From Chloroflexota bacterium (lineage in GTDB: Bacteria; Chloroflexota; Anaerolineae; Aggregatilineales; Phototrophicaceae): 64,000 nucleotides of DNA. Positions 3,989 through 36,876 of this stretch are shown piece after piece (positions within the stretch are counted from its first letter, which is position 1; every line of letters starts with the position of its first letter). Both the position numbers and the translations under genes were made by a program. The notes under the pieces are model-generated. The model was not told the DNA's origin. It saw only the letters and a list, made by a program, of their open reading frames with translations, and ran no database searches. Location of the stretch: contig JACRPS010000014.1 in the NCBI GenBank assembly GCA_016223085.1, positions 137,269 through 201,268 on the forward strand. The letters run 5' to 3'.

Positions 3989-5167
3989 TTACTGCGCTCC
4001 TCTTTCGGCTGCCAGCGCCTTACGGGCGTATTCAACCGCTTTTTTGGCCGCCTCGGTCAGCGTTGCGGCGCTTGTCAAATTTGGAATATTGGCGTTGTCA
4101 ATGATGGCGCGCCCTTCTTCGGCATTCGTGCCCACCAGCCGGATGACCATCGGTAGCCTGGTGGGAACTTCGTTCAGGGCTTCGAGGATACCCCGTGCCA
4201 CCTCGTCACCGCGCGTGATGCCGCCGAAGATGTTAAACAGCACGGATTTCACGTTTGGGTCAGACAGGATAATCCGCAGCGCCGCCGCAACCTTCGAGGC
4301 TTGCGCGCCGCCGCCAATGTCCAGGAAGTTCGCCGGGCCAATTTCTTCACCGCCGTAGAGCCGGGTCATGTCCATCGTCGTCATCGCCAGCCCCGCGCCG
4401 TTGACCATACAGCCGATCTGCCCGTTGAGTTTCACGTAACTGATGCCTGCCAGCCGTGCTTCCGTTTCCTCTTTTGGTTCAGCATCGGTGTCGCGCATCT
4501 CAGCCAACTGTGGCTGCCGGTAGAGCGCGTTGTCGTCAATAATCATCTTGCCATCGAGTGCGAGAAGCTGGTTTTCTTTGGTAATCACCAGCGGGTTGAT
4601 CTCTGCCAGCACTGCATCACTGGCGACGTAACATTTGTACAGGTTGGTCGCAATTTTGCTGAAGGCGCGCCAGTGTTCGTAGGGCAGGTTAATCCCGCTG
4701 GCGAGGTTGCGCGTCTGGTAATCGAGCAGGCCGAGGAAGGGATCAATCCGTTCGCGGATGATGGCGTCCGGCTTGTCACGGGCAACCTGTTCGATTTCGA
4801 CACCGCCTTCGGACGAGGCCATAATCACCGGCTTGCCGGCGGCGCGGTCGTTGGTGACGCCGAGGTATATTTCCTGGCCGATGTTAGCGGCGGGGTCAAT
4901 CAGAACCTTACGGACCGTCAAACCTTTGATTTTCATGCCCAGGATTTGATTGGCGTATTCTTCCGCCTGTTCCGGCGTGCGTGCGACCTTAATGCCGCCG
5001 GCCTTGCCACGTCCGCCGACGAGCACCTGCGCTTTAACGACAACCGGACAGCCCAGTTCGCGGGCGATTTCATAGGCCTCCTGGGGAGTGCTGGCCGTTT
5101 TGCCGCGTGGAATCGGGATGCCAAACTCCGCAAAGCGGAACTTCGATTGGTATTCGTGCAGATTCAA
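3989..5167 (-). CDS. sucC: Succinyl-CoA ligase subunit beta
   Basis: 392 residues, the usual length for the beta subunit, with an ATP-grasp fold at the N-terminus and a CoA-ligase domain at the C-terminus. It opens with the canonical MNLHEYQSK and carries GGRGKAGG (nucleotide loop), EINPLV, and [13 protein letters not shown] near the C-terminus. The start is TTG at 5167. A strong GGAGGT ribosome-binding site six bases upstream and the canonical N-terminus decide it. A TATACT hexamer, a possible -10, lies about 30 bases further upstream without a convincing -35. It is co-transcribed with sucD. Confidence 0.95.
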
Positions 5168-31745: not shown

Positions 31746-32117
31746 ATGGCGAAATCGCGGACTGAGCTGATGGTAGATCGTCTGCGTGATCTTCAGTCAA
31801 CGACCCCGGAGATTGAGGCATCGGCGGTCGTAAGTGTGGATGGCCTGATTATGGCTTCCTCGTTACCGGCAGGCGTGGAAGAAGACCGGGTATCGGCGAT
31901 GTCAGCGGCGATGCTGTCCCTCGGCGAACGTATTTCGACTGAACTGGGACGCGGGGCGCTGGAACAGGTGTATATCCGGGGACGTGATGGGTATGTCATC
32001 CTGATGTCGGTTGGTGAGGAAGCGGTGCTGACCACCCTGGTGCGCGAAGGCGCAAAACTCGGTCTGATCTTCCTGGATATGCGCCGGACGGCTGACGATC
32101 TCGAAAAGCTGGTTTAG
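31746..32117 (+). CDS. Roadblock/LC7 domain protein
   Basis: 123 residues forming a single roadblock fold. The segment EIEASAVVSVDGLIMASSLPAGVEEDRVSAMSAAMLSLGER is the typical first half, and GYVILMSVGEEAVLTTLVREGAKLGLIFLDM the second. In bacteria such proteins (MglB-like) regulate small Ras-like GTPases, and one is encoded at 37028-37558. GAGAGGAG precedes the ATG. A terminator follows, so it is monocistronic and separate from pyrG. Confidence 0.9.
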   Translation: MAKSRTELMVDRLRDLQSTTPEIEASAVVSVDGLIMASSLPAGVEEDRVSAMSAAMLSLGERISTELGRGALEQVYIRGRDGYVILMSVGEEAVLTTLVREGAKLGLIFLDMRRTADDLEKLV

Positions 32118-32154: not shown

Positions 32155-32202
32155 CGGCGGGGTGAAACGCAGCGAGTGTTCCCCCGCCGCGATTTTTGTT
32201 TG
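32155..32202 (+). terminator. Terminator after the roadblock gene
   Basis: CGGCGGGG (32155-32162) pairs with CCCCGCCG (32182-32189). The 19-base loop can fold further, and a T-rich run (TTTTTGTTTG) starts three bases after the stem. Confidence 0.65.
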
Positions 32203-32226
32203 TTAGTGAGTTGTGTGAGTGCTGCT

Positions 32227-33833
32227 ATGCCCAAGCCCAAGTACATCTTCTGCACCGGCGGCGTGGTGAGTTCGGTTGGTAAAGGTGTAACCGCCGCTGC
32301 GATTGGCCGTATCCTGAAGGCGCGGGGACTGCGTGTCGCCGTGCAAAAGCTTGACCCGTATCTCAATGTTGACCCCGGCACGATGAGTCCCTACCAGCAC
32401 GGCGAAGTATTTGTCACGGCTGATGGGGCAGAAACCGACCTTGACCTGGGACACTACGAACGGTTTATTGACGAAAACCTGAACCGTACCTGCAACGTCA
32501 CCGCGGGGCAGGTGTATGGCTATGTAATTGACAAGGAACGCCGGGGCGTGCTGATGTGGTGATCGTCGAGGTGGGCGGCACGGTGGGCGACATCGAAGGC
32601 CAGCCGTTCCTCGAAGCTATCCGGCAGATGCGCATGAACGTATCACGGCACGATACGTTGTGCGTTCATGTGACGTTTTTGCCGTATATCGGTGCAACCG
32701 GCGAACTCAAGACTAAACCGACGCAGCACAGCGTGCGCGATTTGCGCAGCATTGGCATCCAGCCCAACGTGATTATCGCCCGCACCGATTATCCGGTAAG
32801 TCAGGACGTGACAGACAAAATCGCGCTGTTCTGCGACGTGGATAAGGAAGCGGTCATTCCGCTGCAAACGATTGACCTGCTGTACGAAGTGCCGCTGATT
32901 CTGGAAGATGCCGGCCTGGGCAATTATCTGGTGGAGCAGCTTCAGCTTGAGGTTGGCAAACCGGACCTGAGCGAGTGGCGCAATCTGGTTAAGCGGATGC
33001 GGGCCGCCAAGCAGGCCGAGCCGCTGCGCATCGCCGTTGTTGGCAAATACGTGGAACTTCACGACGCTTATATGAGCGTGAAAGAGGCGCTTTTCCACGC
33101 GGCCAGCGCGCAGAACTGCCGCCTTGAAATCGAGTGGATCTACTCCGGCGATCTCGAAAAGGAGAAAGGCTGGGACCGGCTGGCCTCGGCTCATGGTATT
33201 GTCGTTCCCGGTGGCTTTGGCTACCGGGGGGTTGAGGGCAAAATCATGGCAGCGCGCTACGCCCGTGAGCGCAAAATCCCATACCTGGGGCTGTGCCTGG
33301 GGATGCAGGTCATGTGCGTGGAGTTCGCCCGCAACGTTTTGGGGCTGGAAGGCGCCAACAGTTCCGAGTTTGAAAGCGCTGAACACCCGGTGATTGACCT
33401 AATGCTGGAGCAGCGCGGTATTACCGACATGGGTGGCACGATGCGTCTGGGCCTGTACCCGTGCCAGCTTCAACCCGGAACGGTGGCTGCGGAGGCTTAC
33501 CACAACGTGCCGGAAGTGCAGGAACGCCACCGCCACCGCTTTGAATTTAACAATGCTTACCGCACCCGGTTTGACCAGCATGGTATGGCGTTCAGCGGCC
33601 TTAGCCCGGATGGCGAACTGGTGGAAATCGCGGAAATCAAAGACCATCCGTTTATGGTTGGCAGCCAGTTCCACCCGGAATTTCTGAGCCGCCCGAACCA
33701 GCCACACCCGCTGTTCCTGGCGTTTGTGAGGGCGGCGGCACAGCGCCGGGACGCGCTGCCGCAGGAGGTGGTCAACAACGCCAACGGCTTTGTGCGAAAA
33801 GATGTACCGGATGAAACAGAACGAAGGAAATAA
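32227..33833 (+). pseudogene. pyrG: CTP synthase with an internal frame-changing deletion
   Basis: CTP synthase makes CTP from UTP, ATP and glutamine. The first part (32227 to about 32546) encodes [20 protein letters not shown] and [18 protein letters not shown], then ends out of frame at TGA 32560-32562. The second part continues in another frame from about 32547 ([21 protein letters not shown]) to the glutamine amidotransferase domain, with LGLCLGMQ and its catalytic Cys. Between them the roughly 28-35 residue segment that begins EYLGxTVQVIPH in homologues is absent. The DNA therefore lacks on the order of 85-105 bases, not a multiple of three. As CTP synthase is normally essential, an assembly or sequence error is likely. 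Confidence 0.88.
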
Positions 33834-33837
33834 GGCG

Positions 33838-34884
33838 ATGAGCGTAGACAGTTTCATTCACGCCATTCCGAAAGTTGAATTGAACCTTCAATTTGAGGGT
33901 GCGCTGCGTAAAGATACGCTGCTGATGATTGCCGAGCAGAATGACATCCCCGGCACCATAAAGAATTTCCAGCAGTGGCTCGCGTTGCTGGAACGCCCCG
34001 ACTACAAACGGCTGGACGAGATGGTGCGGGCCGTTAGCCAGTGGCTGCAACTGCCGGAAAACCTGACTCGGCTGGTATACGAGATGGGTGTGGCGCTGGC
34101 AAAGCAGAACGTGCGCTATGCCGAGGTGAGTATCAACCCGACGCTGTATATGGAGCAGGGACTAACGTTTGAGCAGCTACTGACAGCGATCAATGATGGC
34201 CGTGACCGGGTGACTCGCGGTTGGGGAGTACAAATCCGCTGGATTCTGACGATACCTCGCGATCAACCACGCAAGGCCGATGACTATCTGCGCTGGGCGA
34301 CCAGCACGTCCGCCCGGAAGGGCGGGGTGCTTGGCATCGGCCTGGGTGGGCCGGAAAACGCGCAGCCGATTGGGCAGTTTGAGCGACCGTTCCGCAGTGC
34401 GGAAAAGAAGGAGCTGCACCGGGTGGCGCTGGCCGGTGATGAACTGGGCGCGGAAGGCATCATTGAAGCGGTCACACATCTCCAGCCTGACCGCATCTAT
34501 CGCGGTTGGGGCGTGGCGGAGTCGCCGGAGGCGCTGCGGCTGCTGGATGAGCAGCATATCCCGCTGGTGCTGGCGCTGGCGCATGAGGTACGTACCGGAC
34601 GCATCAGCAGTTACGCCGACTACCCGCTGCGCCGGTTGCTGGACGAAGGTCTGACGGTAACGCTGACGTCCGGGATGCCGGAACTGTACCAGACTACGCT
34701 AGTGCAGGAATATCTGGCGGCGGTGGAGCAGATTGGCGTTGGGCTGACCGATGTGGAAGAAATGGCGCTGAACAGCGTGCGCGCCAGCCTGCTACCGGAC
34801 GACGAAAAACAGACAATGCTCGACCAGTTCACGCAGGAATACGCGCGGCTGCGGGCCGAGCACATTACGCCGGAAACAACGTAA
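33838..34884 (+). CDS. Adenosine deaminase-like protein lacking the metal site
   Basis: 348 residues from the ATG at 33838, four bases after the pyrG stop. The overall length, the PKVEL start and the order of segments match adenosine/adenine deaminases, but every zinc or catalytic position I can align is changed. The HxH motif is N16-L-Q18. HAGE is L198-A-G-D. RIGHG is R-I-Y-R222-G. TDDP is S-G279-M280-P. The surrounding fold-defining residues are kept and the frame is intact. I infer a catalytically dead paralogue with a binding or regulatory role, coupled to pyrG. A deaminase with a different mechanism cannot be excluded. Confidence 0.75.
   Translation: MSVDSFIHAIPKVELNLQFEGALRKDTLLMIAEQNDIPGTIKNFQQWLALLERPDYKRLDEMVRAVSQWLQLPENLTRLVYEMGVALAKQNVRYAEVSINPTLYMEQGLTFEQLLTAINDGRDRVTRGWGVQIRWILTIPRDQPRKADDYLRWATSTSARKGGVLGIGLGGPENAQPIGQFERPFRSAEKKELHRVALAGDELGAEGIIEAVTHLQPDRIYRGWGVAESPEALRLLDEQHIPLVLALAHEVRTGRISSYADYPLRRLLDEGLTVTLTSGMPELYQTTLVQEYLAAVEQIGVGLTDVEEMALNSVRASLLPDDEKQTMLDQFTQEYARLRAEHITPETT

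Positions 34885-34977: not shown

Positions 34978-36876
<1,899 letters not shown>

Follow-up and report, generated by a model that had tools for sequence, protein, structure and literature searches.

The question raised by this locus is what a protein that has kept the length of an adenosine deaminase (ADA), with every metal-binding and catalytic motif replaced, may be doing directly behind the gene for CTP synthase. The locus lies in a stretch of 64,000 nucleotides from a Chloroflexota bacterium, which is referred to here as the window. The gene in question, designated pseudo-adenosine deaminase (pADA; positions 33838..34884, + strand), was defined by its open reading frame, a Pfam match, a structural model and alignment. 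It encodes 348 amino acids with an ADA-fold TIM barrel, begins with ATG at 33838 and ends with a stop codon closing at 34884. A preceding interpretation made from the letters alone (the sequence-only reading) had described the frame as intact, and the 348 codons are indeed read without an internal stop. The ATG is preceded by AAGGAA, and the stop codon of pyrG (ending at 33833) lies four bases before it, which bears out the spacing given in the same reading. The two genes are probably co-transcribed. On the other side, a convergent gene (34978..36876, − strand; from the ORF list and locus comparison), which we take from its sequence to be dnaK, marks the boundary of the cluster.

The pyrG gene of the window (CTP synthase; 32176..33833, + strand) is split by a frameshift in the assembly into ORFs 32176–32562 and 32556–33833. 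Its start may be the GTG at 32176, as in the ORF list, or the ATG at 32227, from which a family-like N-terminus is read. Where the nearest relative (locus L041) has 87 bp, only 2 bp are left in the window, with the frameshift near 32546, and approximately positions 105–131 of the CTP_synth_N profile are missing. No other pyrG was found in the window's genome. CTP synthase is normally needed by the cell, so the lesion is likely an assembly error, the alternative being a real lesion. The pyrG neighbour proposed earlier is thus adjacent as described, but the description has to be corrected in that the window's own copy is broken in the assembly.

The homology of pADA to ADA is beyond chance. The protein matched the Pfam family A_deaminase (PF00962) with 188.9 bits at a cut-off of 27, covering profile positions 1–327 of 330. 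It remained under the equivalog cut-off of TIGR01430 (190.2 vs. 216.55 bits); the best TIGR01430 E-value among 63 orthologues was 3.4e-62, which should correspond to about 210 bits, and an active-type ADA linked to pyrG in a sister family (L141) scored 301. Searches against Pfam and NCBIfam up to E = 1 returned only adenosine/AMP deaminase families and no dihydroorotase. The AlphaFold2 model, for which 63 unchanged family sequences served as input, had a mean pLDDT of 96.7. Comparison of the model with the PDB (VIA) gave Z 43.9 over 339 residues for 4gxw and Z 41.4 for mouse ADA (1add), and the top matches were adenosine and adenine deaminases aligned over the whole chain. Both the nearly end-to-end Pfam match and the whole-chain structural match support the earlier description of an ADA homologue with length and residue order kept. 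Full-length homology, the TIM barrel, length and residue order are therefore common to pADA and ADA (PF00962, TIGR01430; 4gxw, 3rys, 1add), whereas the replacement of four zinc ligands and three catalytic residues, together with the score below TIGR01430, sets pADA apart from the enzyme.

The replaced sites were located by alignment with one ADA chain, in which we take H15, H17, H214 and D295 to be the zinc ligands and E217, H238 and D296 to be the catalytic residues. The zinc sites map to N16, Q18, L198 and G279, respectively, and the catalytic sites to D201, R222 and M280. In the window, all on the + strand, NLQ stands for HxH (H15 and H17; codons 16–18, 33883..33891), LAGD for HAGE (H214 and E217; codons 198–201, 34429..34440), RIYRG for RIGHG (H238; codons 219–223, 34492..34506), and SGMP for S/TDDP (D295 and D296; codons 278–281, 34669..34680). 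All seven residues are replaced, in agreement with the original observation. No displaced set of ligands is apparent elsewhere in pADA, the alignment being collinear from end to end. pADA is very probably not an adenosine deaminase, and the pattern of substitutions points to a loss of activity.

Orthologues of pADA were found in 82 of the 98 genomes of the window's family, the window's own included, and represented 20 genus codes. Their scores were clearly separated from those of paralogues. Two further ADAs over the Pfam cut-off (L161 and L180), both with intact motifs, are encoded in the window's genome. In 34 of the 82 carrier genomes, pADA was the sole A_deaminase match at E ≤ 1e-10, a number counted by hand from tables that include some incomplete genomes. 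An active ADA is therefore unlikely to be the partner of pADA or the enzyme to which it is accessory. Another genome belonging to the same genus (L174, 3001–5104) carries two active-type ADA genes in tandem with a spacing of four bases, the stop codon of the first ending at 4059 and the next start lying at 4064.

The gene order was also conserved. In all 81 readable pADA loci, pyrG was located directly upstream on the same strand; in the remaining one (L090), the contig begins inside the gene, and the pyrG side is cut off. The distance from the end of the pyrG match to pADA ranged from −8 to 281 bases (median 78), which is too small for a normal-sized gene. Orthologues sharing the pyrG neighbour, which the sequence-only reading had named as a check, are thus the rule in the family. 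Among the 16 family genomes without pADA, six also had no pyrG, so that the locus itself is missing, one had pyrG cut at a contig edge, and nine, spanning four genus codes, had pyrG. No ADA-like match was found in these nine loci (L193–L201). A small protein gene located 5' of pyrG in the window (31746..32117, + strand), whose product is presumably roadblock/LC7-like (rblc7) judging by sequence type, was present in 72 of the 81 loci, window included, with 48–98% identity to the window's protein in the other 71. It was absent from four loci with room for it (L072, L117, L118, and L160), in which the pyrG–pADA pair stays.

Within the orthologue set, the seven sites did not behave alike. The equivalents of H238 and D296 were retained in none of the 82 proteins, while E217 was kept in 14, H214 in 13, D295 in 33, H15 in 15, and H17 in 12 (one row was gapped at the last two sites). 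None of the seven residues was left in 29 orthologues, the window protein among them. Of the substitutions seen in the window protein, the orthologues thus share the loss of His238 and Asp296, but the other five sites vary. All four zinc ligands were kept in four orthologues (L050, L052, L054, and L056); having no His238 or Asp296, these proteins are possible zinc-binding, non-catalytic intermediates.

An order-wide search, followed by reading of the best further loci, revealed 14 ADAs directly behind pyrG in two sister families of the order (11 in f2 and three in f4; L141–L154). Their motifs HxH, HAGE, (G/K)HG and S/TDDP were intact. The upstream small gene was present in 13 of these 14 loci, the other one lying at a contig end. 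Neither four additional loci from families f7 and f8 nor the other paralogues that were read had a pyrG in the stretch examined. One of the linked proteins (L151, 868–2139 in reverse-strand coordinates) is 423 amino acids long and has a C-terminal extension of approximately 75 residues.

Phylogenetic reconstruction was based on 77 proteins: 37 of the 82 orthologues and 40 active-type ADAs (14 pyrG-linked and 26 others). With the motif columns left in and the bootstrap not fully settled, the inactive clade formed a single group on a long stem (support 100/100) and was joined with the 14 linked active-type ADAs (100/97), apart from the 26 other ADAs. L050 and L054 branched first within the inactive clade (90/84). 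On this tree, the H238 and D296 sites each need one change among the 37 orthologues, and the other five sites need 5–8 changes each. L141–L154 hence share the gene order of pADA and represent the nearest lineage in the tree, but differ in their intact motifs and in lacking the helix signature described below. A class-level search with a profile of the linked active-type ADAs matched 87 genomes, 11 of them in the window's order. Neighbours were read for 30 loci from these 87 genomes, all outside the order. By pattern, 28 of the 30 had all four motifs; L215 and L232 missed one each, possibly because of alignment breaks. None had pyrG within the flank, which was at most about 1.5 kb long and shorter where a contig ended.

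On the simplest reading of these data, the link to pyrG arose first, in this order, when the enzyme was still active, and the loss of catalysis followed in place. Because the sister families have an intact pyrG–ada pair and the tree joins them to the inactive clade, catalysis appears to have been lost once, in place, in the window's family. The number of changes on the tree and the zinc ligands kept in the first branches suggest that the catalytic residues went first and that the zinc site was eroded later and repeatedly.

The loss was accompanied by a gain elsewhere. Conservation, that of the pocket included, was compared on 41 orthologues left after thinning at 60% identity. Helices alpha2, alpha3 and alpha4 had conservation values of 0.54, 0.47 and 0.51 in the inactive clade vs. 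0.35, 0.23 and 0.40 in other ADAs. Relative to 13 of the 14 linked ADAs, a less divergent set (61% mean identity vs. 41%), alpha2 and alpha3 were again more conserved in the inactive clade, and no gain was seen for alpha1 (0.56 vs. 0.57) or alpha4 (0.51 vs. 0.56). Newly conserved positions fell within residues 1–192 in 19 of 21 cases (hypergeometric P 4e-4). The strongest of the new residues were mostly Arg, Lys and Trp, spaced at 3, 4 or 7 steps along helices 73–89, 111–129, 144–154 and 178–190, and the net charge of alpha2–alpha4 changed from about −3 to +3. On the model and the alignment, we propose helices alpha1–alpha4 with their gained Trp/Arg/Lys signature (codons 69–191; 34042..34410, + strand) as a binding face. 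The signature comprises eight residues: W69, D120, R127, W129, R145, R152, R183 and K190. With L090 omitted, at least six of them were present in all 81 orthologues tested and all eight in 64, compared to at most three in each of the 40 active-type ADAs; the signature was picked from the clade's own consensus, and this contrast is partly by construction. The informative part is its presence in the first-branching L050 and L054, where it is complete alongside all four zinc ligands. Helix periodicity and charge suggest that the signature residues face outward.

Our leading explanation, which we hold tentatively, is that this pseudoenzyme has been kept as a non-catalytic binding or regulatory subunit, with PyrG as the first candidate partner. 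The narrower version, that pADA is in most of the family a dedicated ADA-derived subunit for the regulation or assembly of CTP synthase, is more doubtful. From the gained face and the gene order, we infer binding to another protein, which protein this is, and a regulatory effect. Several observations speak against PyrG as the partner. The pyrG link was already present with an intact ADA in the sister families, so the neighbourhood, being inherited, does not by itself show partnership. Nine genomes have pyrG without pADA, and PyrG can therefore do without it. In the window, pyrG is interrupted while pADA is intact.

PyrG sequences were compared for 76 of the 82 carriers, 13 of the 14 active-linked genomes and all nine non-carriers; the remaining ones were truncated, disrupted or not extracted. 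Carriers and active-linked genomes differed at six positions. At the thresholds set, no residue conserved among carriers was altered in the nine non-carriers; with no difference between these two groups, the comparison neither supports nor locates a contact on the PyrG side. A long C-terminal tail of PyrG with an NG[FHY] motif was seen in 19 of the 76 carriers (L041–L056 and others), in none of the nine non-carriers and in none of the 13 active-linked genomes. As a possible short linear motif it was set aside, since no instance appeared among the sequences from the large genus g22. The 'pyrG partner' of the sequence-only reading survives as the best single guess, given the conserved neighbour, but is weakened by a link that predates the loss of catalysis and by a PyrG without matching change.

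The same two facts favour a scaffold with a different partner, for which the pyrG neighbourhood would be only inherited co-expression. The gained basic and aromatic residues would suit such a scaffold equally, whether it forms a homo-oligomer or binds the upstream small protein, another protein or nucleic acid. The conservation of the small protein in 72 of the 81 loci is in line with it, but this gene is missing from four loci in which the pyrG–pADA pair persists, and no data point to another partner. We consider this explanation rather unlikely.

If a ligand were bound, in the absence of metal, by what was once the ADA pocket, pADA would be a sensor of nucleotides or nucleosides; a nucleotide sensor had also been suggested from the letters. 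The fold is kept, and so are single pocket residues (G184, now G171, with conservation 0.95; E186, now E173, 0.82; D19, now E20, 0.69). The pocket as a whole argues against this. At 16 positions mapped from what we take to be the list of ADA pocket residues, conservation in the inactive clade was 0.40 vs. 0.41 overall, and 54% of random sets were as high; in the order's other active-type ADAs, the same positions reached 0.81 vs. 0.44 for all positions. Among the less conserved parts of the inactive clade are the stretches containing strands beta5, beta7 and beta8 (0.28, 0.29 and 0.35). Mean conservation over residues 193–320 was 0.34, compared to 0.51 in other ADAs of similar divergence and 0.72 in linked ADAs. 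A sensor is improbable, and conservation has shifted from the pocket to helices alpha1–alpha4.

An enzyme with new chemistry, perhaps at a metal-free new active site, is very improbable. Conservation of pADA is compatible with it, relatives among the amidohydrolases can function with a modified metal site, and four of the 82 orthologues have all four zinc ligands. Still, the newly conserved positions lie almost entirely within residues 1–192, the named ones mainly on or near helices and not at the barrel mouth, and the D296 and H238 equivalents are absent from all 82 proteins.

In the 40 closest orthologue pairs, which share members and are not independent (L090 omitted), dN/dS was 0.07–0.24, with 0.12 for the window and L041; four active-type ADA pairs gave 0.09–0.15. 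With these values, an intact frame and presence in 82 of the 98 family genomes, the gene does not look like a pseudogene, and the proposal that selection has kept the fold without zinc chemistry is upheld. A decaying gene or sequencing artefact is hardly credible: residues of the pocket do vary, nine pyrG-bearing genomes lack the gene and the window's pyrG is frameshifted, but the pADA frame stays open across 82 genomes from 20 genus codes (L090 seen in part), dN/dS is low, the new residues are near-invariant, and in 34 genomes no other family member was matched.

An enzyme turned into a binding protein is expected to acquire residues as it loses catalysis and to retain them while its pocket diverges, which is the pattern found here. 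Under the favoured explanation, a subunit with PyrG as the candidate partner, the ancestor shared by three families of the order would have had an active ADA behind pyrG. A single loss of catalysis would have followed in place on the stem leading to the window's family, with the equivalents of His238 and Asp296 going first, and by the same stage the conserved aromatic and basic face would have been gained on helices alpha1–alpha4. With the pocket no longer of consequence, the metal ligands would then have disappeared repeatedly and in parallel. The alpha1–alpha4 face of pADA would dock on a partner from the same gene cluster, most probably PyrG, and docked pADA may modulate the assembly, stability or feedback of CTP synthase.

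The literature offers analogues for both halves of this proposal. According to one source, the ATCase of Pseudomonas contains an inactive dihydroorotase chain needed for activity and assembly, and a fungal pseudo-dihydroorotase domain lacks zinc ligands (PMC7053772). The pseudo-dihydroorotases of class A2 Pseudomonas ATCase and of the fungal ura2 type (PMC7053772, PMC4581275) resemble the proposed pADA in being inactive homologues of a zinc enzyme that serve pyrimidine synthesis; they differ in that they derive from dihydroorotase, that the partner is ATCase and that the complex is demonstrated, whereas pADA derives from ADA and its complex with CTP synthase is proposed. The Pseudomonas chain may serve as a working model for pADA as a required dead-barrel subunit. 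In mammalian ADA, helices R76–A91 and P126–D143 contact CD26 (PMC5818423), which suggests that the ADA fold can use the alpha1–alpha4 face for protein binding. The equivalents of these helices in pADA (residues 73–88 and 111–128) fall within the conserved face, although mammalian ADA is active and its partner is unrelated. A description of the pADA family was not found in open-licence PMC literature, as judged by title or start of abstract.

The locus makes the history of a pseudoenzyme traceable: an intact relative occupies the same genomic position, intermediates have lost the catalytic residues but not the zinc ligands, and in other members the metal site is gone completely. The new conserved residues are present as early as the first-branching members of the inactive clade. 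Since pADAs pass the Pfam cut-off, automatic annotation may name them adenosine deaminase, and because 34 of the 82 carriers have no other family match, purine salvage could be mis-predicted for these bacteria. We know of no dedicated protein subunit of bacterial CTP synthase reported before; if PyrG is the partner, pADA would be the first known to us. In that event, an inactive zinc-hydrolase barrel would have been recruited to pyrimidine synthesis a second time and independently, repeating what is seen with dihydroorotase and ATCase in Pseudomonas.
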